Assembly (NCBI RefSeq): GCF_011634835.1
Contig: NZ_SIRP01000001.1
Coordinates: forward strand, 2,601,355 to 2,665,354
Source of the DNA: Isoptericola sp. BMS4
GTDB taxonomy: Bacteria; Actinomycetota; Actinomycetes; Actinomycetales; Cellulomonadaceae
Reading direction: 5' to 3'
DNA length: 64,000 bases
Below are positions 4,218 to 26,518 of the stretch, piece by piece. Under the pieces are notes generated by a model, which saw nothing but the letters and a program-made list of their open reading frames with translations, ran no database searches and had not been told where the DNA came from. Position numbers and translations under genes: made by a program. Position 1 is the stretch's first letter, and each line of letters opens with the position of its first letter.

Positions 4218-4339
4218 GGGGCCCTCCTTCGGACCGACGGACGATGCTGCGGGTCGATGCCCGGGACGGCGCATGGACGCCGTCGTCCCTCCCACCGGCG
4301 TCGTGCCGGGGCGCCACGAGAATGTGCTGCGACCCACAC

Positions 4340-4367
4340 CTAAGCACTTGCTCAGTTCTGGTGTCAA
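4340..4367 (-). promoter_or_regulatory. Promoter and TetR-type operator of the permease-moaF operon
   Basis: On the minus strand a perfect TTGACA (4367-4362) is followed 6 nt later by the imperfect palindrome read on the plus strand as CTAAGCACTTGCTCAG (4340-4355). Arms of 7 bp match at 6 of 7 positions around a 2-bp centre. The operator fills the spacer towards the expected -10 position, a classical repression geometry. The same motif with the same placement relative to a -35 box occurs at 5031-5046 in front of the amine oxidase gene. Confidence 0.75.
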
Positions 4368-4408
4368 CACCTCCGCAGCGACCGCCGCGCGGCGACTATG
4401 CTGCGGAC

Positions 4409-5092: not shown

Positions 5093-6409
5093 ATGAACAA
5101 CACGCCCGACCGCAGCGCCGGTCCACGACCTGACACCGACGTCGTCGTGGTCGGCGCGGGCTTCGCGGGGCTCACCGCCGCCCGCGAGCTTTCCCGTGCC
5201 GGCCGCCGCGTCGTCGTGCTCGAGGCACGGGACCGCCACGGCGGCCGCACGTGGCTGGACGAACGACTGGGGCTCGACCTGGAGCTCGGCGGCACCTGGG
5301 TGCACTGGACCCAGCCCCACGTCTGGGCGGAGCTGCGCCGGTACGGCATCGGCGTCGTCCCGAGCCCCCGACCCCGGCGCGCGCACTGGTGGGACGGCAC
5401 GCGCGTCGTCACCGGTTCCCCCGACGACCTGATCGCCCTGCTCGACCGGCCCAACTCCCTGCTCACCGCCCGCAGCAGGGAGGTCTTCCCCCTGCCGTTC
5501 GCACCGCTGGACCTCCCCCTGCCCGACGGGTTGGACCACGTCACGCTGCGGGACGCCATCGACGCCCTACCGGTCACGGCTGAGGAGCGATCGCTCCTGG
5601 CCGCCTTCTGGACGCTGAACTTCAACGGGCACCTTGACGACGCCGCCCTGACCCAGGCCCTGCGATGGGTGGCGCTCACCAACGGGGACTGGAAGGTCGC
5701 GTTCGAGGCCTGCGCCAGCTACAGGATCGCCGGCGGGACCCGGACCCTCGCCTCGGCGATGCGCGCCGACACGGACGCGGAGCTCCGGTTCGGCGCCGAC
5801 GTGCGAGCCGTGGACACCCGTGGCGACGTCGCCCGCGTCGTCATGGCGGACGGGACGATGCTGACGGCTCACGACGTCGTCATCACGGCGCCCCTGCACG
5901 CGCTCGCCCGCATCGAACTCCCCCGGCCGGTACCCGCACCCGTGGACGCGGCCGTGACCCGCGGGCAGGTCGGGCTCGGCACCAAGGTGTGGTTCACCGT
6001 CGACGGCGAGCTCGACCCGTTCGTCGCCCTGGGAGCCGCCGACTGGCCGCTCACCTTCCTCCAGTCCGAGTACGTCCACGACGGCAGGACCTTCGTCATC
6101 GGCTTCGGCCCGGACGCGGGCCGACTCGACCCGACCGACCGGCGCACCGTCCAGGCCGCGGCCGACCGGCTCGTCCCCGGATTGGCCGTCAGCGAGAGCA
6201 CGGGCCACGACTGGGTCGCGGACGAGTACGCCGGCGAGACCTGGCCGATGCACCGCGCCGGCTTCCTGACCACTTCGCTGGAAGCGCTCCGGTCCCCGCT
6301 GCACGGCCGCGTCCACCTCGCGGGATCCGACGTGGCCGACGGCTGGGGCGGCTTCATCGACGGGGCGATCGAGAGCGGCATGACCGTCGCGCGTCGCCTC
6401 GTCGGCTGA
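5093..6409 (+). CDS. Flavin monoamine oxidase
   Basis: 438-aa FAD amine oxidase predicted to oxidise a primary amine to an aldehyde with release of ammonia and H2O2. It has the N-terminal dinucleotide-binding GAGFAG (residues 21-26) with Glu44 for ribose binding, the GGRTW signature (50-54), a lysine in GLGTKVWF (Lys298) at the place of the conserved flavin N5-contacting lysine, and the C-terminal GWGGFIDGAIESG segment that closes the FAD site. The ATG follows GAGGAGG. No signal peptide, so cytosolic. Its promoter carries the same operator as the permease-moaF operon, so substrate import and oxidation are co-regulated. Tyramine, dopamine or phenylethylamine are plausible substrates given the homoprotocatechuate genes downstream, but this is inference. 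Confidence 0.88.
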   Translation: MNNTPDRSAGPRPDTDVVVVGAGFAGLTAARELSRAGRRVVVLEARDRHGGRTWLDERLGLDLELGGTWVHWTQPHVWAELRRYGIGVVPSPRPRRAHWWDGTRVVTGSPDDLIALLDRPNSLLTARSREVFPLPFAPLDLPLPDGLDHVTLRDAIDALPVTAEERSLLAAFWTLNFNGHLDDAALTQALRWVALTNGDWKVAFEACASYRIAGGTRTLASAMRADTDAELRFGADVRAVDTRGDVARVVMADGTMLTAHDVVITAPLHALARIELPRPVPAPVDAAVTRGQVGLGTKVWFTVDGELDPFVALGAADWPLTFLQSEYVHDGRTFVIGFGPDAGRLDPTDRRTVQAAADRLVPGLAVSESTGHDWVADEYAGETWPMHRAGFLTTSLEALRSPLHGRVHLAGSDVADGWGGFIDGAIESGMTVARRLVG

Positions 6410-11888: not shown

Positions 11889-12042
11889 GCGTGCGCCTCC
11901 CCGTGTCCGCGGGCGGCCTCGGTGCAGCCCTGCCGCCATCGTGCGCCACCGCCCTGCCCGGACGGAGCGGCCCGCCGGCGGGCCTGCGCTCGCGCAACAG
12001 GGCCGTGCGCTGTGCAGCAAGCCCGCCCCGGTCGGCCCGGCG

Positions 12043-12061
12043 AACAATCGACTCGATCGTT
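12043..12061. promoter_or_regulatory. Putative operator between SDR operon and APC permease
   Basis: AACAATCGA-C-TCGATCGTT is a 19-bp palindrome with 8 of 9 arm positions matching. It lies 30 bp before the permease start and about 155 bp upstream of the divergent SDR gene. Symmetry and location suggest the site of a dimeric regulator; the IclR or AraC protein encoded nearby are candidates, without direct evidence. Confidence 0.45.
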
Positions 12062-12090
12062 GGACCACCGCTGGCGAAGGGGCCACCACT

Positions 12091-13536
12091 ATGAGTACCG
12101 CAACAGCCGAGACCACCGGCCTGCGGCGCAACGCGCTCGGCGTCGCCGCCATCGTGTTCCTCGTGCTGGCGGCGGTCGCGCCGCTGACCGGCATCGTCGT
12201 GGTCGCCTCGCTCGCGATCGCGCTCGGCAACGGCGGCGGCACGCCGATGTCGTTCTTCTTCGTCGCGCTCATCCTGCTGCTGTTCGCCGTCGGGTACGCG
12301 CAGATGTCCAAGCTGCTGGTCAGCGCGGGCGGCTTCTACGCGTTCGTCGTCAAGGGCCTCGGCCGCACCGGCGGGCTCGTCGCCGGCTTCGTCGCGACGA
12401 TCGGCTACAACTTCTTCGTGGCCGGCACCATCGGCACCAGCGGCTTCTTCACGCAGACGATCATGGCCGACCTCACGGGCATCGACCTGCACTGGTACGT
12501 GTGGGGGCTCGTCTCCATCGTGGCCTGCTTCGTCATGGCGCGGACCGGCGTCGACTTCAGCTCCAAGATCCTCGGGGTCGCCCTGGTGCTCGAGGTGCTC
12601 ATGCTCGTGGTCTTCGACATCTCCGTGCTGGTGCAGACCGGCTACGACACGAGCGCGTTCAGCGCCGAGTCGGTGTTCTCCGGCTCCCTGCCGATCGGCC
12701 TGCTGCTGGCCGCCACCGGGTTCCTCGGGTTCGAGGCGACGGCGCTGTTCAGCGAGGAGGCGCGCGACCCGAAGCGCACCATCCCCCGCGCCACCTACAC
12801 CGCGATCACCGCGATCGGCGTCATCCTGGGCGTCACCACCTGGGCCGTGGTGAGCGCCACCGGCGTCGAGCAGGCGCAGCAGTCCGCCCTCGACCACCTC
12901 GCGGCCGGCGACCTCGTGTTCTCCCTGTCGCAGACCTACCTGGGCGGCCCGCTCACCACGCTGATGGAGGTGCTGCTGCTGGTCAGCCTCTTCGCGGCCA
13001 TGCTCGCGTTCCACAACTCCGCCACCCGCTACCTCTACTCCCTCGGCCGCGCCCGGGTGCTGCCCCGCGTGCTCGCGCGCACCCGCGACAACGGTTCACC
13101 GCAGCTCGCGGGTGCGGTGCAGGCGGTCTTCGCCGCGGCGGTGGCCGGGCTGTTCGCCGTCTCCGGCGCCGACCCGATCGGGTCCCTCGTGCCCTCCATG
13201 ATCGGGTTCGGCACCCTCAGCGTGCTCGTGCTCCAGGGACTCGCGGCGCTGTCGATCGTGGTGCACTTCCGCCGGGCCCGCGACCCGCGCGTCTGGAGCA
13301 CGCTGGTGGCGCCGGGCATCGGCTTCCTCGGGCTGCTGTGGATCGTCGTGATGGCGATCGCGAACTTCGACATCGTGGCGGGCTCCGACGCCCTCGCCGT
13401 CCGGATGCTGCCGCTGCTGCTGGTCGTCGCGCTCGTGGGTGGCGTCGCCTACGCCGCCTACCTGCGGCGCCGGCGCCCGGAGGTCTACCAGGGGCTGTCC
13501 GACGACCTCGAGCGGTTCAACGTGCACGCGCACTGA
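12091..13536 (+). CDS. APC family permease
   Basis: 481-aa membrane protein with about 12 helices, a paralogue of the permease at 2772-4217 by length and motifs. It shows IVFLVLAAVAPLTGIVVV in helix 1, the FLGFEATALFSEEARDPKRT motif, and an RYLYSLGRARVLPRVL segment shared with APC amine/amino-acid carriers. ATG with AAGG upstream. It is transcribed alone and diverges from two SDR genes, so it probably imports the compound those enzymes act on. An amine, amino acid or aromatic acid is possible. Confidence 0.83.
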   Translation: MSTATAETTGLRRNALGVAAIVFLVLAAVAPLTGIVVVASLAIALGNGGGTPMSFFFVALILLLFAVGYAQMSKLLVSAGGFYAFVVKGLGRTGGLVAGFVATIGYNFFVAGTIGTSGFFTQTIMADLTGIDLHWYVWGLVSIVACFVMARTGVDFSSKILGVALVLEVLMLVVFDISVLVQTGYDTSAFSAESVFSGSLPIGLLLAATGFLGFEATALFSEEARDPKRTIPRATYTAITAIGVILGVTTWAVVSATGVEQAQQSALDHLAAGDLVFSLSQTYLGGPLTTLMEVLLLVSLFAAMLAFHNSATRYLYSLGRARVLPRVLARTRDNGSPQLAGAVQAVFAAAVAGLFAVSGADPIGSLVPSMIGFGTLSVLVLQGLAALSIVVHFRRARDPRVWSTLVAPGIGFLGLLWIVVMAIANFDIVAGSDALAVRMLPLLLVVALVGGVAYAAYLRRRRPEVYQGLSDDLERFNVHAH

Positions 13537-13617: not shown

Positions 13618-15279
13618 TCACCGGGGTCGCTCGTATCGAGCCCCTCGTCTCTGGCCGACGAGCGTCAGGTCGCCGGCCTCGACAAGCCGCTTCAGCGTCG
13701 CTCGCGCCTGCTCCGGACTCGTCTGGCACAGCTCAGCCGCCTGCCCTCGGCGGATCGATCCATAGGCGTCCACGTAGTCGAGGATCATGCGCTGCTGTTG
13801 GAGTGCATCGGCGCCCTTCACACGGACGTAGGCGTTCCGGTCCTGCGCCAGGTCGTAGAACCGTGCGGTGAGGTGCACCCGACGACTCCGGCCTGTTCCG
13901 CGAGCCTCCAAGATGCCGAGCTCGATGAGCCGGGTCGTGATGGTCCGCACCGTCGGGGGGAGCAGCCCGAGGCTCTCCGCGATCTCGGTACTCGTCGCGG
14001 ATCCCCAAGCCTTGATCTCGTGCACCACCCGCAGTTCGTCGAGGGTCAGCGGTCGTTGGCGGTCGTTCTCCCAGACCTGCAGGAAGCGCACCAGGTCGAG
14101 GTCGGCAGCGCCCAGAGGGACGCTCAGGACGACGGTGTCCGACGTCGTCCGCGAGTAGTCGGGTACCTCACGCCCGGCGCGGAGCTGCTGTTCGAACATC
14201 TCGTTCACGCCCTTGCCCTTGCGATCGACAAGGCCCGCCCGCTTGAAGGCGCCCGCGAGGATCGGGCTTCGCGGTCGTGACTGCTCGAGGACGTTCGCTA
14301 CGGTGACGCCCGGCGGGAAGCCGCCGGGGTTCCCGACGACGAACTCGCTGTCAGAGATCCGCACGCTTGTCGGGCCGAGCGCCGCGTAGTCACGGTGCAC
14401 CAGCGCGTTGGCCACCGATTCGCGACGTGTCTTCTCAGGGATGAGATCCACCTCGATCCGGTGCAGCCCCACGACCAGCTCCGTCGTGTCGTTGCGCTGA
14501 TCGATCAGACTCCAGAGCTCTTCGGCCACCCGCTGCAGAGGTCCGACGATCCGCACGTTCGCGGCCTGCTGCCCGACGCTCATGTCTTGGAAGAGGAACT
14601 CCGCGTTCGGGACCCACCGTGCCACGGCGTCGTCATGACCGAAGAGCAGGATCGCACCCAGGCTCACGGGGGCGTCCCGCGGCACGAGTCCCAAGGCCTT
14701 GAGGATGTCATCGTCGGACAGCGTGCCGAGGTCGTCACCGTTCGCCCGACACCGCGACCGGAACCGGTCGAACTCGGCCGGGTCGAGGTCGTCCATCGTC
14801 GCGCCTCGTGCGGTCGCGGACGCGAAGTCCTGGCCCCGCGTGACCATGCCCAACGAGACGATCTCGTGCGCCGTCATCGGCACGCATCCCGGTTCGCCTG
14901 TCGAGTCGAGCGCCCGCCTGGTGAAGGTCCCCTTCTTGGTGCCGACCGGTCCGGGGTCGGCCCTCGGTACGTCGATGCGAACGACCTCGCGCTCATCGAT
15001 CCACTCGACGGTGACCTGCACGGCGAGAGGCGGCTCGGTGTTGTTCTGAATGAGCGCGGCGACCCTGGCAGGGTCGGTGTGATCGCGGTGCCGATGCCTC
15101 GCCCCCACGATGCGGCCGGCGTTGTCCACCCCGAGCAACAGCACGCCGCCGTCACCGTTCGCAAGACATGCCACGGCCTTCGTCAGGTCCGGGTCGCTGT
15201 AGTCGGACTTGAACTCGGTCATCAGTGTCTCGCCTGCAGCGACCAGAGCTCGTGTGTCCACGAGCCCATAGTTGCGCAT
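13618..15279 (-). CDS. AlbA_2/Schlafen-type putative ATP-binding transcriptional regulator
   Basis: 553-aa protein of the RecG-like/AlbA_2 group. The N-terminal AlbA_2 (Schlafen-type) domain covers about residues 15-140 (LMTEFKSDYSDPD, ACLANGDGGVLLLGVDNAGR). A GHKL-ATPase-like region with RRESVANALVHRDY and VGNPGGFPPGV lies at about 300-380, and the C-terminus holds winged helices (LTLDELRVVHEIKAWG; QAAELCQTSPEQARATLKRL). Such proteins are often annotated as helicase-like or transcriptional regulators; function is generally unproven, and some sit near defence loci. It stands alone between metabolic operons and is possibly acquired. The ATG chosen lies in the loop of an inverted repeat and has no Shine-Dalgarno; MTEFKSDY 57 nt downstream is an alternative start. 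Confidence 0.78.
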   Translation of the reverse strand: MRNYGLVDTRALVAAGETLMTEFKSDYSDPDLTKAVACLANGDGGVLLLGVDNAGRIVGARHRHRDHTDPARVAALIQNNTEPPLAVQVTVEWIDEREVVRIDVPRADPGPVGTKKGTFTRRALDSTGEPGCVPMTAHEIVSLGMVTRGQDFASATARGATMDDLDPAEFDRFRSRCRANGDDLGTLSDDDILKALGLVPRDAPVSLGAILLFGHDDAVARWVPNAEFLFQDMSVGQQAANVRIVGPLQRVAEELWSLIDQRNDTTELVVGLHRIEVDLIPEKTRRESVANALVHRDYAALGPTSVRISDSEFVVGNPGGFPPGVTVANVLEQSRPRSPILAGAFKRAGLVDRKGKGVNEMFEQQLRAGREVPDYSRTTSDTVVLSVPLGAADLDLVRFLQVWENDRQRPLTLDELRVVHEIKAWGSATSTEIAESLGLLPPTVRTITTRLIELGILEARGTGRSRRVHLTARFYDLAQDRNAYVRVKGADALQQQRMILDYVDAYGSIRRGQAAELCQTSPEQARATLKRLVEAGDLTLVGQRRGARYERPR

Positions 15280-15289
15280 AACTATGGGC
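15264..15289 (-). promoter_or_regulatory. Inverted repeat enclosing the start codon of the AlbA_2 gene
   Basis: GCCCATAGTT (15264-15273) and AACTATGGGC (15280-15289) are perfect 10-bp arms around the 6-nt spacer that on the minus strand reads ATGCGC and contains the start codon. A related half-motif CATAACT occurs again at 15316-15322. It could be an autorepressor operator over a leaderless start, or an mRNA hairpin presenting the AUG in its loop. Confidence 0.6.
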
Positions 15290-15408
15290 CGCACAATCTT
15301 GTCGGCGCACGGAACCATAACTTTTGAAACGTATGGCGCGTCAGCCGCGGTCGGGCTTCCCGCTGCGGACGGCTTCTTCGTCCGCCGCCTCACCCCAGAA
15401 CGAGAACA

Positions 15409-15456: not shown

Positions 15457-16884
15457 TCAGCCGCTGATCACCTGCGGCACGGCGACGGACTTCAGACCCT
15501 CGACGCCGAACTCCAGGCCGTAGCCGGAGCCCTTGACGCCGCCGAACGGGACCATGGGGTGCAGGCCGCCGTGCTGGTTGATCCAGACGGTGCCCGCCTC
15601 CAGCCGGGCGGCGACGCGGCGCGCCTCGTCCCGGTCGGACGACCACACCGACGCCCCGAGCCCGGCGTCGAGCCGGTTGGCGCTCGCGACGGCGTCGTCC
15701 ACGTCCGTGTAGCGGATGACGGGCAGCGCGGGGCCGAACTGCTCGGAGTCCACCAGCGGCACGCCGTCAGTGACGTCCGTGACGATGGTGGTCCGGTAGA
15801 ACAGCTCGCCCAGCTCGGGCGCGGGCTCGCCGCCGGTGACGACCCGGCCGCCGCGCGCCTTCGCGTCGTCCACCAGCCGGCGCACGATGTCGTACTGCTG
15901 GGCGTTCTGCAGCGGGCCGAGCACGGAGTCCTCGTCGAGTCCGCGCCCCATGGGCGTGGCCTCCGCGATCTCGGCGAGCGCTGCGACGACGTCGTCGTGG
16001 ATCGAGTCGTGCACGTAGAGGCGCTTGAGCGCCGCGCACGTCTGCCCGGTGTTGATGAACGCTCCCCAGAACAGGTCCTGCGCGATGGCCTGCGGGTCGG
16101 CGTCGGGAAGGACGATGCCCGCGTCGTTGCCGCCCAGCTCGAGGGTGAGGCGGGCGAGGTTGCCGGCGGAGGACTCGATGATCTTGCGGCCCGTGGCCGT
16201 GGAGCCGGTGAACATGATCTTGTCGACGTCGGGGTGGGCGGCCAGCCCGGCGCCGACCTCGCGCTCCCCGGAGACGGCGGTGAGCACGCCGTCGGGCAGG
16301 ACGTCGTTCAGCACGGCGACCATGGCCAGCACGCTCAGCGGCGTGTGCTCGCTGGGCTTCACCACCACGGTGTTGCCCATGCGCAGCGACGGCGCGATCT
16401 GCCAGATGCCGATCATCAGCGGCCAGTTCCACGGACCGATGGCGCCGACGACCCCGACCGGCCTGTAGACGAGCTCCGCGTGGCCGGTCTCGTCGTCGAC
16501 GAGCACCTCGGGCTCCAGCGGGGTGTCGGCCGCGGTGCGCAGCCAGGTGGCGCAGGCGCCGAGCTCGAACCGGGCGTTCGGGCCGTTCAGCGGCTTGCCC
16601 TGCTCGCGCGAGAGCAGCCGGGCCAGCGGCTCGGCCTGCGCCTCGACCGCGTCGGCGGCCCGGTGCAGCAGCGCGCTGCGACGCTCGTGCCCGAGGGCCG
16701 CCCAGCCGGGCTGCGCGGCGCGGGCGGCCGCGACCGCGGCGTCGAGGTCCGCGACCGTGTGGACGGGCGCCCGGCCGAACACCTCGCGCGTGGCGGCGTC
16801 GAGGATCTCGCGCCCCTCGCCGGCGGGCGCCTGGACGCGGTCGAGCAGCGTGCGCTCGTCGAGAGTCTGGGTGGGTGCGGACAT
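15457..16884 (-). CDS. NAD(P)-dependent aldehyde dehydrogenase
   Basis: 475-aa member of the aldehyde dehydrogenase superfamily. It has PWNWPLMIGIW, the FTGSTATGRKI loop, the general base in LELGGNDAGIV, the nucleophile Cys283 in NTGQTCAALKR, and the C-terminal PFGGVKGSGYGLEFG. The start is MSAPTQTL; the longer upstream reading lacks conservation. It follows the MHS transporter gene by 120 bp on the same strand and is transcribed away from the homoprotocatechuate operon. It could oxidise the aromatic aldehyde made by the monoamine oxidase (for example 4-hydroxyphenylacetaldehyde) to the acid; this is contextual inference, since the fold is used for many aldehydes. Confidence 0.85.
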   Translation of the reverse strand: MSAPTQTLDERTLLDRVQAPAGEGREILDAATREVFGRAPVHTVADLDAAVAAARAAQPGWAALGHERRSALLHRAADAVEAQAEPLARLLSREQGKPLNGPNARFELGACATWLRTAADTPLEPEVLVDDETGHAELVYRPVGVVGAIGPWNWPLMIGIWQIAPSLRMGNTVVVKPSEHTPLSVLAMVAVLNDVLPDGVLTAVSGEREVGAGLAAHPDVDKIMFTGSTATGRKIIESSAGNLARLTLELGGNDAGIVLPDADPQAIAQDLFWGAFINTGQTCAALKRLYVHDSIHDDVVAALAEIAEATPMGRGLDEDSVLGPLQNAQQYDIVRRLVDDAKARGGRVVTGGEPAPELGELFYRTTIVTDVTDGVPLVDSEQFGPALPVIRYTDVDDAVASANRLDAGLGASVWSSDRDEARRVAARLEAGTVWINQHGGLHPMVPFGGVKGSGYGLEFGVEGLKSVAVPQVISG

Positions 16885-17004
16885 CAGCGTCTCCCTCGGC
16901 TGTCGTGGCGCGCGGTCTCGCACCGCGCCAGGCCATTCTGGGGACGCACCACCACCGCGGAGTTGTCTCGCAGCGCACCGTTCGTGTCCCGGCGGGAACG
17001 GCCG

Positions 17005-18381
17005 TCAGGCCCGCGAGACCAGGTGGAGCGGGCTCGCGGTCTGCTCGTCCTCGTGCTCCGGGCCGAGGGGGATGCCGGTGCGGTCGCGCAGCATGAGGGT
17101 CCCAGCCAGCCCCAGGAGCGTCATGACCGCCAGGTACACGGTGACCGCCGACGTCGACCCCGTGGTCTGCACGAGCCACGTGGCGATCGTCGGTGCGAAG
17201 GCGCCACCGATGATGGCACCGATCGCGTACGAGATCGACACGCCCGAGAACCGGACGGACGCGGGGAACAGCTCCGAGTAGAGCGCGGGCTGCGGACCGT
17301 AGGTGAAGCCGAGGCCGACCGTGAGGATCGCCAGACCGGCGAAGAGTGTCCCGATGCTGCCGGCGTTCACGAGCGGGAAGAGCGTGAGGACGCCGACGAG
17401 CTGCAGCATCCAGCCCACGACGTAGGTGGTGCGGCGCCCGAGGCGGTCCGAGACGCCGCCGGCCACCCAGGTCGAGACCAGCCAGGTCACGGCCGACCCC
17501 GCGACCGCCCACAGGACCGGGCCGCGATCGAGCGCGAGCGGGCCGTCGGGGTCCGTCGCGTAGTTCTGGATGTACCCGCCGGTGGTCATGTAGCCGACGG
17601 CGCTGTTCCCCGCGAAGACGAACGCGGCGACGACCACCAGAAGGGCGTGCTTGCGGAACAGCTGGACGACCGGCAGGCGGGTCTGCTCCTTGCGCTGCGC
17701 GATCTCGGCGAACACCGGGCTCTCCTCGACCTTCCGGCGCACGTAGTACCCCACGAGGATCAGGACGACCGAGAGCAGGAACGGCACCCGCCAGCCCCAG
17801 TCGAGGAACGCGTCCCCGGGCGCGATCGCTGCCATGAGCGCCATGACGCCCGAGGCGAGCAGGAGGCCGATCGGTACGCCGATCTGCGGCGAGGCGCCGA
17901 AGAGACCGCGCCGCCGCGCGGGGGCGTGCTCGACGGCCATGAGGACCGCGCCGCCCCACTCGCCGCCGGCCGAGACGCCCTGCAGCACGCGCAGCAGGAT
18001 GAGCAGGACCGGCGCGGCGACGCCGATGCTGTCGTACGTCGGGAGGACGCCGACGAGGGCTGTCGCGGCGCCCATGAGGACGAGCGTGACCACGAGCACG
18101 ACGCGGCGGCCGTGCTTGTCGCCGAAGTGGCCGGCGAGGAACGCCCCGAGCGGACGGAACAGGAAGCTGATGCCGACCGTGGCGAAGGACAGGAGCGTCG
18201 CCAGCGCGGGGCCCGCGGGAGCGAAGAACAGCTCACCGAAGACGAGGCCGGCGGCGAAGGCGTAGATGAAGAAGTCGTACCACTCGACGGTGGTCCCGAC
18301 GACGGTCGCGAACACGACGCGTCGTCGATCGGTCAGAGGGGCGGGCGTCCCTGCCGGTGCTGCGGGCTCTGGGCTGTGCAT
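17005..18381 (-). CDS. MFS transporter of the metabolite:H+ symporter (MHS) family
   Basis: 458-aa carrier with 12 predicted helices. It has the MHS-type start VVGTTVEWYDFFIYAFAAG, the GHFGDKHGRR loop between helices 2 and 3, LQGVSAGGEWGGAVLMAVEHAP, and a second-half loop GGVSDRLGRR. MHS proteins import organic and aromatic acids with protons (ShiA, ProP, PcaT relatives). It diverges from the homoprotocatechuate operon, suggesting import of 4-hydroxyphenylacetate, homoprotocatechuate or a related acid. Start supported by GGAGA ahead of the ATG. Probably one transcript with the aldehyde dehydrogenase. Confidence 0.85.
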   Translation of the reverse strand: MHSPEPAAPAGTPAPLTDRRRVVFATVVGTTVEWYDFFIYAFAAGLVFGELFFAPAGPALATLLSFATVGISFLFRPLGAFLAGHFGDKHGRRVVLVVTLVLMGAATALVGVLPTYDSIGVAAPVLLILLRVLQGVSAGGEWGGAVLMAVEHAPARRRGLFGASPQIGVPIGLLLASGVMALMAAIAPGDAFLDWGWRVPFLLSVVLILVGYYVRRKVEESPVFAEIAQRKEQTRLPVVQLFRKHALLVVVAAFVFAGNSAVGYMTTGGYIQNYATDPDGPLALDRGPVLWAVAGSAVTWLVSTWVAGGVSDRLGRRTTYVVGWMLQLVGVLTLFPLVNAGSIGTLFAGLAILTVGLGFTYGPQPALYSELFPASVRFSGVSISYAIGAIIGGAFAPTIATWLVQTTGSTSAVTVYLAVMTLLGLAGTLMLRDRTGIPLGPEHEDEQTASPLHLVSRA

Positions 18382-18528
18382 GGAGTCTCCGGATGACGTC
18401 GTTGTCGGTGGGGCAGGCTCGTACGGTCTGCACGTGTCCCGATGATGATATACGATTTGAGATATTCCATGAACGACCCCCGGGAGCCTCAGGGACGAGG
18501 CCCCGTCCGACTCCACGCGAGGGAGCAC
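18382..18528. promoter_or_regulatory. Divergent control region, MHS transporter / homoprotocatechuate operon
   Basis: 147 bp between divergent starts. Positions 18441-18470 form a conspicuously AT-rich island with GATAT repeated at 18447-18451 and 18461-18465 and a TATACG hexamer that could serve as a -10 element. The GntR regulator encoded second in the operon is the natural candidate to act here. I could not define a convincing operator. Confidence 0.4.
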
Positions 18529-19980
18529 ATGGCCACCGACGACCAGCGGAGACCCGGCAAGATCATCGCCGTCCACCTCAACTACCCCTCGCGCGCCGCG
18601 CAGCGGGGCCGGACGCCGGGCCAGCCGTCCTACTTCCTCAAGCCCGCGTCGTCGCTCGCGCCGACGGGGAGCACGATCGAGCGTCCGCTCGGCACCGAGC
18701 TGCTCGCGTTCGAGGGCGAGGTCGCCATCCGCATCGGCACGCCCGCCCGGTGGGTCTCCCCCGCGGACGGCTGGTCGCACGTCGACGCCGTCACCGCGGC
18801 CAACGACTTCGGCCTCTACGACCTGCGCGCCGCCGACAAGGGCTCCAACCTGCGCAACAAGGGCGGCGACGGCTACACGCCGCTCGGCCCCCGCTGGATC
18901 CCGGCGGCCGACGTCGACCCTGCGGGCCTGCGGGTGCGCACCTGGGTGGACGGCGCGCTGGTGCAGGACGACACCACCGGCACGCTGCTGTTCGACTTCG
19001 GCCGCCTCGTCGCCGACCTCTCCCAGCACCTCACCCTGGAGCCCGGCGACGTCGTCCTCACCGGCACGCCCGCCGGGTCGAGCATCGTGGAGCCCGGGCA
19101 GGTCGTCGAGGTCGAGGTGGACGCCCCGGACGCCCCCGGCGCCCCCTCGAGCGGCCGGCTGGTCACGACCGTCACCGCCGGCACCCGCGAGTTCGGCGAC
19201 TTCGGCTCGAAGCCGTCGGTGGACGACCGGCAGCGGGCCGAGGCGTACGGCACCGAACCGCCCGCGACGGAACCGGCGTTCGTCCTCACCGACGAGCACC
19301 GCGAGCGCTTCGCCGAGGTCGCCGTCGCGACCGTCTCGGCCGCCCTGCGCAAGCGCGGGTACACCGACGTCTTCGTCGAGGGCGTGCACGGCAACCACCC
19401 CGGAGACCGGTTCGTCGGCACCGCCCGCACGCTGCGGCTGATCCCGTTCCGGCCCGACCTGTTCGCCTCCCACGGCGGCGGCTTCAACGCGCAGAAGCGC
19501 GCGTTCGACGCCGTCGAGCCCGGCGAGGTGATCGTCGTCGAGGCGCGCGGCGAGCGCGGCACCGGCACCGTCGGCGACGTGCTCGCCCTGCGCGCGAAGG
19601 TCCGCGGCGCGGCGGCGGTCGTCACCGACGGCGGCGTCCGCGACGCCGACGCCGTCGCGGAGATCGGCATCCCCGTCTTCTCCGCCGGCCCGCACCCGTC
19701 CGTCCTCGGTCGCCGGCACGTGCCGTGGGAGACGGACGTGACGGTCGCGTGCGGCGGCGCCGCCGTCCAGCCCGGCGACGTGGTCGTGGGCGACGGCGAC
19801 GGCGTGCTGGTCATCCCGCCCGCCCTCGTCGAGGAGGTCCTCGCCGAGGCCGAGGCCCAGGAGGCCGCCGACGCGTGGGTGGCCGACCGGGTCGCCGAGG
19901 GCCACCCGGTGGACGGGCTGTTCCCGATGGACGCGCGATGGCGGGCTCGCTACGAGGCCGAGACCGGGGGAGCCCGATGA
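18529..19980 (+). CDS. FAH-domain / RraA-domain fusion, homoprotocatechuate pathway decarboxylase-isomerase
   Basis: 483-aa two-domain protein. The N-terminal FAH domain (about residues 10-225) has the metal ligands Glu62, Glu64 and Asp93, with the same 2- and 29-residue spacing known for HpaG/HpcE, and the GDVVLTGTPAG motif. The C-terminal domain (about 250-455) is RraA-like, with GDVLALRAKVRG and DGGVRD (367-372). In E. coli HpaG both activities (decarboxylation of 5-oxopent-3-ene-1,2,5-tricarboxylate and isomerisation of the product) sit in two tandem FAH halves. Here the second half is an RraA fold, whose relatives are metal-dependent decarboxylases and aldolases of 2-oxo acids. The ATG at 18529 follows GAGGGAG; an in-frame upstream ATG lies in the promoter. 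First gene of the hpa operon. Confidence 0.82.
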   Translation: MATDDQRRPGKIIAVHLNYPSRAAQRGRTPGQPSYFLKPASSLAPTGSTIERPLGTELLAFEGEVAIRIGTPARWVSPADGWSHVDAVTAANDFGLYDLRAADKGSNLRNKGGDGYTPLGPRWIPAADVDPAGLRVRTWVDGALVQDDTTGTLLFDFGRLVADLSQHLTLEPGDVVLTGTPAGSSIVEPGQVVEVEVDAPDAPGAPSSGRLVTTVTAGTREFGDFGSKPSVDDRQRAEAYGTEPPATEPAFVLTDEHRERFAEVAVATVSAALRKRGYTDVFVEGVHGNHPGDRFVGTARTLRLIPFRPDLFASHGGGFNAQKRAFDAVEPGEVIVVEARGERGTGTVGDVLALRAKVRGAAAVVTDGGVRDADAVAEIGIPVFSAGPHPSVLGRRHVPWETDVTVACGGAAVQPGDVVVGDGDGVLVIPPALVEEVLAEAEAQEAADAWVADRVAEGHPVDGLFPMDARWRARYEAETGGAR

Positions 19981-20687
19981 CCACCGCGACCTCCGCCGGG
20001 GCGCCCCGCACCGAGAGCAAGTCCCAGCAGGCGTACCGCTTCGTGCGCGAGCGCATCGAGGACGGCCGCTACGTGCCCGGGTACCGACTGGTGCTCGCGC
20101 AGATCGCGGGCGAGCTCGGCGTGTCCGTCGTGCCGGTGCGCGAGGCGATCCGCCGGCTGGAGGCCGAGGGCCTGGTCACCTACGAGCGCAACGTCGGCGC
20201 CCAGGTCGCCCTGATCCAGGAGACCGAGTACCAGCACACGATGGAGACGCTGGCGCTGGTCGAGGGCTTCGCCACCAGCCTGTCCGCGCCGCTGCTCACC
20301 GCCGACCGGCTCGACGCCGCACGCGCCGTCAACGCCCGGATGCGCCGCTGCCTGGAGGACTTCGACCCGCACCGGTTCACCGAGCTCAACCTCGAGTTCC
20401 ACAGCGTCCTGTTCGAGCCGTGCCCCAACCCGCACGTGCTCGACCTGGTGCACCGGGGCTGGCACCGCATGCGCGTGCTGCGCGACTCGTCGTTCGGGTT
20501 CGTCCCGGGCCGCGCGCACGAGTCCGTCGCCGAGCACGACCAGCTGCTCGACCTCATCGGCGACCTGCAGGCCGGCCGCATCCCCGCCCTCGACCTGGAG
20601 CTGGCGGCCCGCCGCCACCGCACCGCCACCCTGGACGCCGTCCTCGCCTACCAGGCGGACCACCGACCCCACGCTCACGAGCGCTGA
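19977..20687 (+). CDS. GntR family (FCD-type) regulator
   Basis: 236-aa regulator starting within the ATGA overlap of the preceding gene, so translationally coupled. The winged helix (about residues 16-75) contains AYRFVRERIEDGRYVPGYRL and VREAIRRLEAEGLV. The FCD effector domain (about 95-215) has helix motifs LNLEFHSVLF and VAEHDQLLDLI with His residues typical of metal- and ligand-binding FCD proteins. Being the second gene of the homoprotocatechuate operon, it probably autoregulates it in response to an aromatic acid or ring-fission product. Confidence 0.85.
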   Translation: MTTATSAGAPRTESKSQQAYRFVRERIEDGRYVPGYRLVLAQIAGELGVSVVPVREAIRRLEAEGLVTYERNVGAQVALIQETEYQHTMETLALVEGFATSLSAPLLTADRLDAARAVNARMRRCLEDFDPHRFTELNLEFHSVLFEPCPNPHVLDLVHRGWHRMRVLRDSSFGFVPGRAHESVAEHDQLLDLIGDLQAGRIPALDLELAARRHRTATLDAVLAYQADHRPHAHER

Positions 20688-20714: not shown

Positions 20715-22220
20715 ATGACGAGCACCCCCACCACCCGGCGCCCCGACGACCTGCCGGAGCGCATCGATCACTACATCGACGGCGAGCGCGTCGGCTCCGT
20801 CGGCGGCGAGACGTTCGACGTTCTCGACCCGGTGACGAACGAGACCTACGTGCAGGCCGCCGCCGGCCAGCAGGCCGACATCGACGCCGCCGTCGCGTCC
20901 GCCCGCCGCGCGTTCACCGAGGGCCCGTGGCCGCGGATGCTGCCGCGCGAGCGCTCCCGCGTGCTGCACCGCATCGCCGACATCGTCGAGTCCCGCGACC
21001 AGCGCCTGGCGGAGCTGGAGTCGTTCGACTCCGGGCTGCCGATCACCCAGGCCCTCGGCCAGGCCCGCCGCGCCGCCGAGAACTTCCGCTTCTTCGCGGA
21101 CCTGATCGTGGCGCAGGCCGACGACACCTACAAGGTGCCCGGCCGCCAGATCAACTACGTCAACCGCAAGCCGATCGGCGTCGCCGGCCTCATCACGCCG
21201 TGGAACACGCCGTTCATGCTGGAGTCGTGGAAGCTCGCGCCCGCGATCGCCACCGGCAACACCGTGGTGCTCAAGCCGGCCGAGTTCACGCCGCTGTCGG
21301 CGTCCCTGTGGGCGGGAATCTTCTCCGAGGCCGGGCTCCCGCAGGGCGTGTTCAACCTCGTCAACGGCCTGGGCGAGGAGGCCGGCGACGCGCTGGTCAA
21401 GCACCCCGACGTCCCGCTCATCTCGTTCACCGGCGAGAGCCGCACCGGGCAGATCATCTTCGGCAACGCGGCCCCGCACCTCAAGGGCCTGTCGATGGAG
21501 CTGGGCGGCAAGTCCCCCGCCGTCGTCTTCGCCGACGCCGACCTGGACGCCGCGATCGACGCGACGATCTTCGGCGTCTTCTCCCTCAACGGGGAGCGCT
21601 GCACCGCGGGCTCGCGGATCCTCGTCGAGCGGTCCGTGTACGACGAGTTCGTCGAGCGCTACGCGGCCCAGGCGAAGCGCGTGCGCGTCGGGATGCCGCA
21701 CGACCCGGCCACCGAGGTCGGCGCGCTCGTGCACCCGGAGCACTTCGAGAAGGTCATGAGCTACGTCGAGCTCGGCAGGTCCGAGGGCCGCCTGGTCGCC
21801 GGCGGCGGCCGCCCCGAGGGCTTCGAGACGGGCAACTTCGTCGCCCCCACGGTCTTCGCCGACGTGAAGCCGGACGCCCGGATCTTCCAGGAGGAGATCT
21901 TCGGCCCGGTCGTGGCGATCACGCCGTTCGACACGGAGGAGGAGGCCCTCGAGCTCGCCAACGGCGTCAAGTACGGCCTGGCCGCGTACGTCTGGACCAA
22001 CGACCTCAAGCGGGCCCACAACTTCTCCCAGGCCGTCGAGGCCGGGATGGTGTGGCTCAACTCGAACAACGTGCGCGACCTGCGCACCCCGTTCGGCGGC
22101 GTGAAGGCCTCCGGCCTCGGCCACGAGGGCGGCTACCGCTCGATCGACTTCTACACCGACCAGCAGGCCGTGCACATCACGCTCGGCAAGGTCCACAACC
22201 CCACGTTCGGCAAGAACTGA
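20715..22220 (+). CDS. hpaE: 5-carboxymethyl-2-hydroxymuconate semialdehyde dehydrogenase
   Basis: 501-aa aldehyde dehydrogenase, assigned to HpaE by sequence style (start DRIDHYIDGERV-like, GLITPWNTPFMLESWKLAPA, GQIIFGNAAPHLKGLSMELGG) and by its place directly before hpaD. It oxidises the semialdehyde from homoprotocatechuate ring cleavage to 5-carboxymethyl-2-hydroxymuconate with NAD. Catalytic Cys296 in NGERCTAGSR and Glu262 in MELGGKSP are intact, and the C-terminus has PFGGVKASGLGHEGG. It follows the GntR gene by 27 bp with AGGAG before the ATG. Cytosolic. Confidence 0.88.
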   Translation: MTSTPTTRRPDDLPERIDHYIDGERVGSVGGETFDVLDPVTNETYVQAAAGQQADIDAAVASARRAFTEGPWPRMLPRERSRVLHRIADIVESRDQRLAELESFDSGLPITQALGQARRAAENFRFFADLIVAQADDTYKVPGRQINYVNRKPIGVAGLITPWNTPFMLESWKLAPAIATGNTVVLKPAEFTPLSASLWAGIFSEAGLPQGVFNLVNGLGEEAGDALVKHPDVPLISFTGESRTGQIIFGNAAPHLKGLSMELGGKSPAVVFADADLDAAIDATIFGVFSLNGERCTAGSRILVERSVYDEFVERYAAQAKRVRVGMPHDPATEVGALVHPEHFEKVMSYVELGRSEGRLVAGGGRPEGFETGNFVAPTVFADVKPDARIFQEEIFGPVVAITPFDTEEEALELANGVKYGLAAYVWTNDLKRAHNFSQAVEAGMVWLNSNNVRDLRTPFGGVKASGLGHEGGYRSIDFYTDQQAVHITLGKVHNPTFGKN

Positions 22221-22249: not shown

Positions 22250-23404
22250 ATGACCCATCTCGACGACCGCACCCTCACCTCCTCGGGCTTCTACGTCTCC
22301 GCCGAGGCCCCGATCCACTCCGACAACCCCGTCCCGACGCCGCAGAGCCCGCCGCCGGACATCCTGCGCTGCGCGTACATGGAGCTCGTCGTGGAGGACC
22401 TGGCGCGCTCGCGGAACTTCTACGTCGACGTGCTCGGCCTGTACGTCACCTCCGAGGACGCCGAGAGCGTGTACCTGCGCTCGACCGAGGAGTTCATCCA
22501 CCACAACCTGGTGCTGCGCCGGGGCCCGGTCGCCGCCGTCGCCGCGTTCTCGTACCGGGTGCGCACGCCGGAGGACCTCGACAAGGCCGTCGCCTTCTAC
22601 ACCGAGCTGGGCTGCGAGGTGCGCCGCGAGCCGGGCGGCTTCACCCAGGGCATCGGCGACTCCGTGCGCGTCGTCGACCCGCTCGGCTTCCCCTACGAGT
22701 TCTTCCACGCCACGGAGCACGTGGAGCGGCTGTCGTGGCGATACGACCTGCACACGCCCGGCGAGCTCGTGCGCCTGGACCACTTCAACCAGGTGACGCC
22801 GGACGTGCCGCGGGCGGTGAAGTTCATGCAGGACCTGGGCTTCCGCGTCACGGAGGACATCCAGGACGACGCCGGCACCGTGTACGCCGCCTGGATGCGC
22901 CGCAAGCCCACCGTGCACGACACGGCGATGACCGGCGGCGACGGCCCCCGCATGCACCACATGGCCTGGTCGACCCACGAGAAGCACAACATCCTCGCGA
23001 TCTGCGACAAGCTCGGCGCCCTGCGGATCTCCGACTGCATCGAGCGCGGCCCGGGCCGCCACGGCGTCTCGAACGCCTTCTACCTGTACCTGCGCGACCC
23101 CGACGGGCACCGCGTCGAGATCTACACGCAGGACTACTACACCGGCGACCCGGACAACCCGGTCGTCACCTGGGACGTGCACGACAACCAGCGCCGCGAC
23201 TGGTGGGGCAACCCCGTCGTGCCGAGCTGGTACACGGAGGCGTCGCTCGTGCTCGACCTCGACGGGAACCCGCAGCCCGTCGTGGCCCGCACGGACGACT
23301 CCGAGATGGAGGTGACGGTCGGCGCCGACGGGTTCTCCTACACCCGCAAGGAGGACGCCGAGGACGGCGCCCTGCAGGGCTTCAAGCTCGGGGAGACGCT
23401 GTGA
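22250..23404 (+). CDS. hpaD: Homoprotocatechuate (3,4-dihydroxyphenylacetate) 2,3-dioxygenase
   Basis: 384-aa type I extradiol dioxygenase resembling the Fe(II) enzyme of Brevibacterium fuscum rather than the two-gene E. coli form. It has two vicinal-oxygen-chelate modules; the metal ligands are His178 (LDHFN), His237 (MHHMAW) and Glu290 (HRVEIYTQDYYTG). These sit at a constant offset of 23 from the His155/His214/Glu267 ligands I recall for the B. fuscum enzyme. It opens the ring of homoprotocatechuate to 5-carboxymethyl-2-hydroxymuconate semialdehyde. The start is MTHLDDRT after AAGGA; a longer in-frame reading belongs to the shadow of hpaE. The C-terminal tail is typical of the family. It overlaps hpaH by GTGA. 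Confidence 0.93.
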   Translation: MTHLDDRTLTSSGFYVSAEAPIHSDNPVPTPQSPPPDILRCAYMELVVEDLARSRNFYVDVLGLYVTSEDAESVYLRSTEEFIHHNLVLRRGPVAAVAAFSYRVRTPEDLDKAVAFYTELGCEVRREPGGFTQGIGDSVRVVDPLGFPYEFFHATEHVERLSWRYDLHTPGELVRLDHFNQVTPDVPRAVKFMQDLGFRVTEDIQDDAGTVYAAWMRRKPTVHDTAMTGGDGPRMHHMAWSTHEKHNILAICDKLGALRISDCIERGPGRHGVSNAFYLYLRDPDGHRVEIYTQDYYTGDPDNPVVTWDVHDNQRRDWWGNPVVPSWYTEASLVLDLDGNPQPVVARTDDSEMEVTVGADGFSYTRKEDAEDGALQGFKLGETL

Positions 23405-24231
23405 GCGGCGCCGGCGAGCGCACGCCCGGTACCGACGGCGAGCGCACGCTCGACGACGTCGCGGTCACCGCGATCGCGGACGAGCTCGCCGAGGCGGACC
23501 GCACCCGCACCCCCGTGCCGCTGCTCACCGCGCGGCACGAGGGGATGACCGTCGCCGACGCGTACGCCGTGCAGCGCACCTGGCGAGAGCGCGGTGTCGC
23601 CCGCGGCCGCCGCGTCGTCGGGCACAAGATCGGCCTGACGTCGAAGGCCATGCAGGCCGCGACCGGCATCACCGAGCCGGACTACGGCGTCATCTTCGAC
23701 GACATGGTGATCGAGTCCGGCACGGCCGTGGAGCACGCCGCGTACTCGAACGTGCGGGTCGAGGTGGAGCTCGCGTTCGTGCTGGCCGAGCCGCTCGCCG
23801 GCCCCGGCGTCACCGTCACGGACGTGCTGCGCGCCACCGAGCGCGTCGTGCCGGCGCTGGAGATCCTCGACGCGCGCGTCGAGATGGCCGGGCGCACCAT
23901 CGTCGACACCATCAGCGACAACGCGGCGATGGGCGCGATGGTGCTCGGCGGGCGCCCGGTGCGGCCCGACGACGTCGACCTGCGCTGGGCCTCCGCCCTC
24001 CTGTACCGCAACGAGACGATCGAGGAGACCGGCGTCGCCGCGGGCGTGCTGGGTCACCCGGCGACCGGCGTCGCCTGGCTCGCGAACAAGCTCGCCGCGC
24101 ACGGCGACTCCCTCGCCGCGGGTGAGACGATCCTGTCCGGGTCGTTCACGCGCCCCACGTGGGTGCACCCGGGCGACACCGTGCACGCCGACTATGGGAC
24201 CCTGGGGGTCGTGACATGCCGCTTCGAGTGA
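23401..24231 (+). CDS. hpaH: 2-oxohepta-3-ene-1,7-dioate hydratase
   Basis: 276-aa hydratase of the HpaH/MhpD group. Conserved blocks include [38 protein letters not shown] (metal ligands Glu), ALEILDARV and [16 protein letters not shown]. It adds water to the 2-oxo-heptenedioate and feeds the HpaI aldolase. The GTG start overlaps the hpaD stop (GTGA), and its end overlaps the hpaI start by 16 bp, so the three are translationally coupled. Confidence 0.9.
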
Positions 24232-25028
24232 CGCCCGACCGCTCCCTCGCCGCCGTCCTCGCGGAGGCCGCCGCGGACGGCCGCCCTGTGACGGGCGCCT
24301 GGTCGTCGATGGGCAGCCCGCTCGCCGCCGAGATCCTCGCCGGCAGCGGCCTCGACGTCGTCCTCGTGGACGGCGAGCACGGGCCCAACGACCTCACGAC
24401 GATCCTCGGCCAGCTGCAGGCGACCGCGGCGTACCCCGTCGCGACGCTGGTGCGGGTGCCTTCCGGCGACGCCGTGCGGCTCAAGCAGGTGCTCGACCTG
24501 GGTGCCGCCAACGTGCTGGTGCCGATGGTCGACTCGGCCGCCGAGGCCGAGGAGGTCGTGCGCGCGGTGCGGTACCCGACCCGCGGGGTGCGGGGCGTGG
24601 GCAGCGCCCTGGCCCGGTCGTCGCGGTGGAACCGCGTGCCCGCCTACCTGTCCGACGCCGACCGGCACGTCACCCTGGTCGTGCAGCTCGAGACCCGCGC
24701 CGCGATCGCCGACGCCGAGCCGATCGCGGCCACGGACGGCGTCGACGCGGTCCTGGTCGGCCCCGCCGACCTCGCCGCGTCGCTCGGCCACCTCGGGCAG
24801 CAGGACCACCCCGAGGTGGTGGACGCCGTGCTCGGCGCGATCGACGCCTGCAAGCGCGCCGGCACGCCCGTCGGCGTCAACGCGTTCGACCCCGCCATGG
24901 CGGACCGCTACCTGGACGCCGGCGCGTCGTACGTCGTCGCCGGCGCGGACGTGACCCTGCTCGCGCGCGGCGCCGAACGGCTCGCGGAGCGCGTGAGCAC
25001 CCGGACGAAGGACGGTGAGACCCGATGA
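24216..25028 (+). CDS. hpaI: 4-hydroxy-2-oxoheptane-1,7-dioate aldolase
   Basis: 270-aa class II pyruvate aldolase. The expected catalytic/metal residues are all present at a uniform +10 offset from E. coli HpaI: His55 (VDGEHGP), Arg80 (LVRVPSG), Glu159 (VQLETR) and Asp185 (GPADLAASLG). It splits 4-hydroxy-2-oxoheptanedioate into pyruvate and succinic semialdehyde. The ATG at MPLRVTPD lies inside hpaH, and the stop overlaps gabD by ATGA. Divalent-metal dependent, cytosolic. Confidence 0.92.
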   Translation: MPLRVTPDRSLAAVLAEAAADGRPVTGAWSSMGSPLAAEILAGSGLDVVLVDGEHGPNDLTTILGQLQATAAYPVATLVRVPSGDAVRLKQVLDLGAANVLVPMVDSAAEAEEVVRAVRYPTRGVRGVGSALARSSRWNRVPAYLSDADRHVTLVVQLETRAAIADAEPIAATDGVDAVLVGPADLAASLGHLGQQDHPEVVDAVLGAIDACKRAGTPVGVNAFDPAMADRYLDAGASYVVAGADVTLLARGAERLAERVSTRTKDGETR

Positions 25029-26518
25029 CCACGACAGCCCTGACCACGGGGACCGGGCCGCGCGAGCGCGCGGCGGAGCTGCTGACGACCACGCCGACCG
25101 GCCTGCTGGTCGGCGGTACCTGGCGCGCCGCGTCCGACGGCGGCACGTTCGCCGTCGAGAACCCGGCCACCGGCGAGGTGCTCGCCCAGGTCGCGTCCGC
25201 CACCTCGGACGACGCCCGCGCCGCGATGGACGCCGCCGCGCAGGCGCAGGCGTCCTGGGGCGCGACGCCGGCGCGCGAGCGCGCGGAGATCCTGCGCCGC
25301 GGGTTCGACCTCGTGCAGTCCCGCCGCGAGGAGCTGGCGCTGCTCATGACGCTCGAGATGGGCAAGCCGCTGGCGGAGGCCCGCGGCGAGGTCACCTACG
25401 GCGGGGAGTTCCTGCGCTGGTTCGCCGAGCAGGCCACGCACGACGAGAGCCGGTACGCGCACTCCCCGGAGGGCACCCTGCGCCTGCTGGTGCAGCGCCG
25501 CCCCGTAGGCCCCTGCCTGCTGATCACCCCGTGGAACTTCCCGCTCGCGATGGCGACCCGCAAGGTGGCTCCGGCCGTGGCGGCGGGCTGCACCATGGTG
25601 CTCAAGCCGGCACGCCTCACCCCGCTCACGTCGATGTACTTCGCCCGGCTCATGGGCGAGGCCGGGCTGCCGGACGGCGTGCTCAACGTGGTGCCGTCGG
25701 CGTCGGCGTCGTCCGTGAGCGAGCCGGTCATGGCCGACCCGCGGCTGCGGAAGATCTCCTTCACCGGGTCGACGCCCGTCGGGCAGTCGCTGCTGCGCTC
25801 CGCGACGCAGAACGTGCTGCGCACGTCGATGGAGCTGGGCGGCAACGCCCCGCTGGTGGTGTTCGACGACGCCGACCTGGACGTCGCCGTCGACGGCGCG
25901 ATGGCGGCCAAGCTGCGCAACGGCGGCGAGGCGTGCACCGCCGCCAACCGGTTCTACGTGCACGAGGACGTGGCCGAGGAGTTCGTCTCGCGGCTGGCGG
26001 AGCGGATGCGCGCCGTCGTCACGGGGAACGGCCTGGACGACGGCGTCACCCTCGGCCCGCTGGTCGAGGCCAAGGCGGTCGACTCGGTGGCGTCCCTGGT
26101 GGACGACGCCGTCGAGCGCGGCGCGCGCGTCGTCGTCGGCGGCTCCCGCGTCGACGGGCCGGGGCACTTCTTCCAGCCCACACTGCTGACCGACGTCCCG
26201 GCCGACGCCCGCTGCATGCGCGAGGAGATCTTCGGCCCCGTGGCGCCCGTGGCGACGTTCCGCACCGAGGACGAGGCCGCCGAGCTCGCCAACTCCACCG
26301 AGTACGGGCTCGCGTCCTACGTGTTCACCACGGACGTGCGCCGCGGCCTCGCGTTCGCCGAGCGGCTCGAGTTCGGGCTGCTGGGCCTCAACGCCGGCGT
26401 CATCTCCAACGCCGCCGCCCCGTTCGGCGGGATGAAGCAGTCCGGCTCCGGCCGCGAGGGCGGCTTCGAGGGTCTCGCCGAGTACCAGGAGGTCCAGTAC
26501 GTCGGTATGCCCCTCTGA
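25025..26518 (+). CDS. gabD: Succinate-semialdehyde dehydrogenase
   Basis: 497-aa aldehyde dehydrogenase that closes the pathway by oxidising succinic semialdehyde from HpaI to succinate. Key residues are Cys304 (NGGEACTAANRFYV) and Glu270 (MELGGNAPLV). ITPWNFPLAMATRKVAPA, TFRTEDEAAELAN and PFGGMKQSGSGREGG are typical of GabD/SSADH. It overlaps hpaI (ATGA) and is the last gene of the operon. Its TGA is the first three bases of a giant palindrome. No cofactor preference is claimed. Confidence 0.9.
   Translation: MTTTALTTGTGPRERAAELLTTTPTGLLVGGTWRAASDGGTFAVENPATGEVLAQVASATSDDARAAMDAAAQAQASWGATPARERAEILRRGFDLVQSRREELALLMTLEMGKPLAEARGEVTYGGEFLRWFAEQATHDESRYAHSPEGTLRLLVQRRPVGPCLLITPWNFPLAMATRKVAPAVAAGCTMVLKPARLTPLTSMYFARLMGEAGLPDGVLNVVPSASASSVSEPVMADPRLRKISFTGSTPVGQSLLRSATQNVLRTSMELGGNAPLVVFDDADLDVAVDGAMAAKLRNGGEACTAANRFYVHEDVAEEFVSRLAERMRAVVTGNGLDDGVTLGPLVEAKAVDSVASLVDDAVERGARVVVGGSRVDGPGHFFQPTLLTDVPADARCMREEIFGPVAPVATFRTEDEAAELANSTEYGLASYVFTTDVRRGLAFAERLEFGLLGLNAGVISNAAAPFGGMKQSGSGREGGFEGLAEYQEVQYVGMPL

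Follow-up and report, generated by a model that had tools for sequence, protein, structure and literature searches.

We confirmed that the gene at positions 18529 to 19980 (+ strand) of the window, a stretch of 64,000 nucleotides from Isoptericola sp. BMS4, encodes a real fusion protein in which a fumarylacetoacetate hydrolase (FAH) domain is followed by an RraA-like domain, with both metal motifs intact. Tight evidence from gene neighborhoods and genome searches indicates that this fusion occupies the place of HpaF and HpaG in the homoprotocatechuate pathway of actinobacteria. The assignment draws on the partnership of the fusion with HpaE and HpaD, taken together with the missing HpaF and HpaG.

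The open frame encodes 483 amino acids (P0001), and a Pfam search found a single PF01557 stretch followed by PF03737. The FAH domain, which resembles the decarboxylase half of HpaG (HpaG-C), spans residues 11 to 215 (18559..19173, +). The RraA-like domain, which has the RraA fold, spans residues 267 to 428 (19327..19812, +). Between them lies a linker of about residues 221 to 252 (19189..19284, +) that is partly of low confidence in the structure model, with pLDDT below 50 at residues 224 to 234 and 239 to 249. Mean pairwise identity is 47% over residues 222 to 255 versus 69% and 66% in the two domains. Motifs and invariant positions were counted over 115 fusion sequences, the window's protein among them. 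The predicted metal ligands of the FAH domain, Glu62 and Glu64 (codons for Glu62-Gly63-Glu64 at 18712..18720, +) and Asp93 (18805..18807, +), are invariant in all 115; for the two glutamates we assume the role they have in the FAH family. In the RraA half, Asp350 (19576..19578, +) and Arg371-Asp372 (19639..19644, +) align with 3noj and make up what we take to be the motif named D-X20-R-D, which is present as GD-X20-RD in 115/115 sequences. The sequence-only reading had called both sites intact, and the alignments agree. An assembly or frame artifact was ruled out: 115 fusions were collected, the window's included, and each flagged stop marks the end of a gene. PF02962, the HpaF CHM isomerase family, was absent from the protein's Pfam matches at E values up to 0.001.

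The fusion is a common, already catalogued actinobacterial family. The NCBIfam model NF009399/PRK12764, "fumarylacetoacetate hydrolase family protein," describes the same two-domain protein as the window's and matches residues 5 to 479 with 789.9 bits (cut-off, 444). Its name refers to the FAH half only and gives no reaction or pathway. The fusion is annotated "putative Dimethylmenaquinone methyltransferase" on plasmid pTC2 of Paenarthrobacter aurescens TC1 and "fumarylacetoacetate hydrolase family protein" on a Rhodococcus plasmid; on both, it is followed by a GntR gene and then hpaE. A literature search returned no paper mentioning PRK12764 and none with both RraA and fumarylacetoacetate. 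Using RraA halves as the query against genome contigs, we found at least 558 relatives, and the best 80 of these were 78 fused and 2 split forms. Carriers among the matches listed were Arthrobacter (including A. globiformis NBRC 12137), Leifsonia, Cryobacterium, Amycolatopsis, Actinokineospora, Streptosporangium, Streptomyces, and others. In a phylum-wide sample of 396 genomes, 10 had an RraA-half match at E values up to 1e-45, 7 of them from the host's order. The other three were a stand-alone form (L092, genome G254), a fused form (L098, genome G477), and a weaker match in G173, where no hpa cluster was seen. The domain search thus confirmed both folds and the spread of the fusion. Because the family is common and catalogued, the novelty is smaller than the sequence-only reading suggested. 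The rearranged division of labor that it had proposed stands as the best reading but is not peculiar to this genome.

The RraA half also passes the model for an RraA-like subfamily, NF006093/PRK08245 (223.6 bits; cut-off, 208). PRK08245-like genes (L046 to L050 and L099) served only as the tree outgroup; no HpaE, HpaD, HpaH, or HpaI match lay near L046 to L050, and only a 33% HpaI match lay near L099. A second RraA-like gene of the host genome (G000:C1:731359-732030) is PRK08245-like by its tree position, and no hpa gene match was found near it apart from a GntR regulator.

In the window, the fusion gene heads a run of genes on the + strand. It is followed by a GntR/FCD-family regulator (19977..20687; PF00392, PF07729), the CHMS dehydrogenase HpaE (20715..22220; TIGR02299, 659.6 bits; cut-off, 638.35), and a glyoxalase-fold 3,4-dihydroxyphenylacetate 2,3-dioxygenase, HpaD (22250..23404; TIGR02295, 428.7 bits; cut-off, 321.4; PF00903). 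Next come the 2-oxohept-4-ene-1,7-dioate hydratase HpaH (23401..24231; TIGR02312, 353.5 bits; cut-off, 351.5), an HpaI-like aldolase (24234..25028; PF03328) whose best match, TIGR02311, is under its cut-off (292.8 versus 368.8 bits), and a succinate-semialdehyde dehydrogenase-like gene (25025..26518) under that of TIGR01780 (560 versus 646.35 bits). Divergent from these is an MFS metabolite transporter gene (17005..18390, −, start approximate; PF07690/PF00083).

The same partnership emerged from an even sample of 149 genomes of the host's order. The fusion exceeded its cut-off in 34 of them, and HpaE at E values up to 1e-160 occurred in the same 34 (32 over its cut-off), a coincidence with a naive chance of 2e-34 when relatedness is ignored. 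The fusion adjoins HpaE and HpaD in 34/34. Within the stretches around the 33 other fusion loci, HpaE and HpaD were present in 33, HpaH in 31, an HpaI-like aldolase in 29, a GntR regulator in 29, and an MFS match in 17, and the window's order of FAH-RraA, GntR, HpaE, HpaD, HpaH, and HpaI recurred in 23.

HpaG-C (TIGR02303) exceeded its cut-off in 0/149, while two control genomes were over it. HpaF (PF02962) was found in 2/149 (G065 and G121), both fusion carriers, on a contig other than that of the hpa cluster. HpaG-N (TIGR02305) exceeded its cut-off in none of 12 fusion genomes, the host's included, an absence that weighs little because no control genome exceeded it either. PF01361 tautomerases were present in 5 of the 12 and absent in 7, the host among the latter. 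The sequence-only reading had claimed that the fusion replaces the tandem-FAH HpaG and that HpaF is missing. Both claims were supported in the host genome, where a search for a conventional hpaF and hpaG elsewhere found no HpaF, no PF01361 tautomerase, and no HpaG over cut-off. We propose that the fusion replaces the function of HpaF (PF02962) and of 4-OT tautomerases (PF01361). The host has three more FAH genes beyond the fusion and HpaH, one of which reaches 210 bits against HpaG-C and so stays below the cut-off. We take this gene to be probably unrelated to the pathway, because HpaG-C matches at E values up to 1e-52 occur in 94/149 genomes, of which at least 60 lack the fusion. In Rhodococcus ruber, the homoprotocatechuate cluster has been described with a 4-oxalocrotonate tautomerase (PMC6498646). 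The hpaGLEDHI-gabD2 cluster of Corynebacterium aurimucosum (PMC2830990) has the window's gene order by gene name and is without hpaF, which is assigned to cauri_0890 elsewhere; in the excerpted text of that paper, HpaG is not presented as a fusion of FAH with RraA.

Compared with known enzymes, the FAH half is nearer to HpaG-C than to HpaG-N by score, metal ligands, and fold. It scores 126.9 bits against TIGR02303 (HpaG-C; cut-off, 276.4) and 77.2 against TIGR02305 (HpaG-N; cut-off, 228.65). It aligns to residues 217 to 429 of 1i7o, the C-domain of HpcE, and keeps the Glu-x-Glu that in the alignment is missing from the HpcE N-domain. A Glu/Asp metal triad has been reported for the HpcE C-domain (PMC12718150). 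TIGR02312 was not among the matches of the FAH half, which was rejected as a second HpaH. The fusion takes the same pathway place as the bifunctional OPET decarboxylase/HHDD isomerase HpaG/HpcE of Escherichia coli and, like it, has a metal-binding FAH domain with the triad of the decarboxylase half (Glu62, Glu64, Asp93). It has only this one FAH half, however; its second unit is RraA-like rather than FAH, and it stays under both HpaG cut-offs. In Acinetobacter, the same place is taken by separate OPETD and HHDDI proteins; there, as in the fusion, two units are held together.

The RraA half shares its fold and the D-X20-R-D positions with the HMG/CHA aldolase LigK/PcmE (3noj; PMC5065237), which belongs to a different pathway and is not fused to FAH. 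That enzyme is reported to be a magnesium-binding class II pyruvate aldolase with oxaloacetate decarboxylase activity via a pyruvate enolate, and it exchanges pyruvate methyl protons with solvent (PMC5065237). By description, the RraA half can also be likened to FlDet of alginate catabolism, an RraA-like dehydratase/decarboxylase acting on a 2-oxo acid, with a different substrate and pathway (PMC8563752). The RraA half did not reach the LigK cut-offs (TIGR02798, 82.9 versus 304.5 bits; NF006731, 89.7 versus 179 bits) or that of the RNase E regulator RraA (NF006875, 46.4 versus 136 bits). Its nearest solved relative is RraAS2, a member of the RNase ES inhibitor family by title.

From these likenesses we infer the reaction of each half and any channeling between them. 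Our tentative preference is that the FAH half is a metal-dependent OPET decarboxylase and the RraA half a metal-enolate isomerase that stands in for HpaG-N and perhaps for HpaF. The fusion would take 5-carboxymethyl-2-hydroxymuconate (CHM), made by HpaE, to 2-oxohept-ene-1,7-dioate (OHED), used by HpaH. With its Glu62/Glu64/Asp93 metal site, the FAH half would bind OPET by its 2-oxo acid end and take off one carboxylate, giving a dienol or dienolate. At the D-X20-R-D metal site, the RraA half would bind the 2-hydroxy or 2-oxo acid end and shift a proton on the metal-bound dienolate, turning HHDD into OHED in place of HpaG-N; it may also turn CHM into OPET in place of HpaF. The fusion would hold the enol intermediate between adjacent sites, as the OPETD-HHDDI complex reportedly helps in Acinetobacter. 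There, the decarboxylase reportedly performs best when it is complexed with the isomerase and CHMI is also present (PMC12718150), which gives a reason for the fusion.

We assign OPET decarboxylation to the FAH half because it is nearer to the HpaG decarboxylase half and because FAH is the part it has in common with FAH-only hpa clusters; by elimination, the proton shift on the dienolate would fall to the RraA half. Such a shift is chemically possible, since the HMG/CHA aldolase uses a pyruvate enolate and exchanges methyl protons. Against FAH as the decarboxylase, the FAH half scores below both HpaG cut-offs, and the Curtobacterium stretches examined have FAH but show no HpaE. It is unlikely that the RraA half is an isomerase that covers both the HpaF and HpaG-N steps, with one fused protein leading from CHM to OHED. 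What counts against an isomerase is that the RraA-fold enzymes of the papers cited here are an aldolase/decarboxylase (PMC5065237) and a dehydratase/decarboxylase (PMC8563752) rather than isomerases.

Those same activities lend weight to the reverse assignment, in which the RraA half would be the OPET decarboxylase and the FAH half the HHDD isomerase, as do the motif kept in 115/115 sequences and the lone RraA genes beside HpaH in L038 and L039, where there is no fused FAH half. We regard this as rather doubtful, since the FAH half resembles the HpaG decarboxylase half and keeps its metal ligands, and HpaE-HpaD clusters exist with FAH and without RraA in the stretch. The sequence-only reading had hinted at RraA as a decarboxylase or aldolase. 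The chemistry would allow this, but it is the FAH half that resembles the decarboxylase part of HpaG, which favors RraA as the isomerase. Taken as a whole, its interpretation is partly supported.

The RraA half may also act elsewhere. CHM isomerization is reported to be partly spontaneous, and HHDDI left hydratase activity unchanged in Acinetobacter (PMC12718150), so an isomerase may be unneeded. The FAH half would then suffice, with decarboxylation followed by spontaneous isomerization, and the RraA half would be a second aldolase or oxaloacetate decarboxylase or a structural or regulatory module. The occurrence of FAH-only hpa clusters and the kinship with RraAS2 fit this explanation. We nevertheless consider it improbable: the RraA catalytic motif is kept in 115/115 sequences, L038 to L040 keep RraA without fused FAH beside HpaI and, in two, HpaH, and an HpaI-like aldolase is already present in 29/33 fetched fusion clusters.

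Natural variants bear on our preferred assignment of FAH as decarboxylase and RraA as isomerase. Four clusters outside the host's order (L088 to L091) have FAH with HpaE and HpaD and no RraA in the stretch; of the three FAH pieces scanned, two (L089 and L091) exceed the cut-off for HpaG-C and one (L090) is under it (259.6 versus 276.4 bits). Because such FAH-only HpaE-HpaD clusters occur, FAH appears to be the common part and RraA the variable part. The FAH-only matches L041 to L045 were rejected as pathway variants; they are of a different type. L045 carries a LigB-like dioxygenase that scores 130 bits against TIGR02298, below that model's cut-off, and L043 has, by eye, a similar-looking gene. 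Split forms also occur. In Curtobacterium pusillum (L108), genes for RraA, a DapA-type aldolase, and FAH lie in a row on the same strand, and the RraA gene scores 306.5 bits against the C-half of NF009399 and the FAH gene 354.0 bits against its N-half. L167 has a similar split arrangement, and no HpaE was found in the fetched stretch of either. In L098, L103, L104, and L108, the fusion or split cluster includes a DapA-type aldolase (TIGR02313-like in L108, judged by eye in the others), and no HpaH match lies in the stretch.

RraA without a fused FAH half occurs in 3/10 sampled genomes of one family (f9, genus g14; L038 to L040). The lone RraA lies beside HpaI in all three and beside HpaH in two (L038 and L039); in G117, HpaH is about 13 kb from its RraA gene. 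Their HpaD is divergent, sharing 37 to 38% identity with that of the window, and in L038 it exceeds the TIGR02295 cut-off. At E values up to 1e-100, no HpaE was found in G089 or G145, and one match of 45% identity was found in G117. These RraA sequences nest inside the fusion RraA (tree support, 95/89 and 95/96), with weakly supported inner forks, and a topology that groups all six stand-alone RraA forms in one clade was rejected (p-AU 0.001). The HpaH of L038 and L039 nests inside fusion-cluster HpaH (support, 100/99). Because both nest in this way, the RraA and HpaH of L038 to L040 most likely descend from a fusion cluster.

At first sight, L038 to L040 lost FAH and HpaE jointly, which would tie FAH to HpaE. 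This is weakened by a second-type FAH gene about 15 to 23 kb away in 3/3 genomes, 30 to 33% identical to the window's FAH half. Its nearest model is NF053535 (sugar-acid hydrolase), and its HpaG-C score of 182 to 190 bits does not reach the cut-off. An SSADH homologue (62 to 66%) and an Amidohydro_2 gene lie near it in 3/3, and RidA-family genes follow it in both genomes scanned. Because of these further genes on the contigs, we lowered our confidence in FAH as the decarboxylase and in an RraA isomerase covering both the HpaF and HpaG-N steps, and raised it in the reverse assignment. As evidence on domain roles, the loss pattern is ambiguous; it shows that the RraA half can persist without its FAH partner and is silent on its reaction. 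The two halves might instead act on different substrates, for example, the homoprotocatechuate triacid and a second ring-cleavage product, each being decarboxylated. The lone RraA would suit this idea, lying in an island that has a divergent HpaD and more FAH, SSADH, and Amidohydro_2 genes but lacks a true HpaE; so would the L098 fusion, which is accompanied by a DapA-type aldolase and for which no HpaH was seen. We think it quite improbable, given that the 33 other order fusions adjoin an HpaE and an HpaD that each share over 60% identity with those of the window. The contigs of L187 to L189 are the same as those of the L038 to L040 island, with which Curtobacterium L108 and L167 have several genes in common by eye. 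DUF3500 genes lie near the divergent HpaD in L039, L040, and L094, and an MTHFR-like gene lies in L040.

The window also holds genes for a flavin amine oxidase (5093 to 6409, +), a FAD monooxygenase with a phenol-hydroxylase dimerization domain (6437 to 8335, −), amino acid permease-family proteins (2772 to 4457, −; 11995 to 13536, +), and an aldehyde dehydrogenase (15457 to 16923, −). Together with the hpa cluster, these flanking genes probably make up an island that handles phenolic amines (tyramine, for example) feeding homoprotocatechuate. Between the amine and hpa genes lies a gene for a protein with a Schlafen AlbA_2 domain and a RecG-C-like ATP-binding domain (13618 to 15393, −). A similar monooxygenase adjoins the fusion on two plasmids (L183 and L184), and a primary-amine oxidase is also present in L184.

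The middle of the homoprotocatechuate pathway is reported to be poorly understood even in proteobacteria, where the roles of the two HpaG domains are ambiguous (PMC12718150). Actinobacteria appear to run the same pathway segment with a nonhomologous second domain. What is new here is the tight evidence placing the fusion in the actinobacterial HpaF/HpaG position and the range of natural variants, which are fused, split, or single-domain. Since fused, split, FAH-only, and RraA-only forms all exist in nature, the domain-by-domain assignment is directly testable. Assigning the halves would give a function to a common family that is now named by one half only, and if the RraA half is an isomerase, isomerization could join the reactions credited to the RraA fold.
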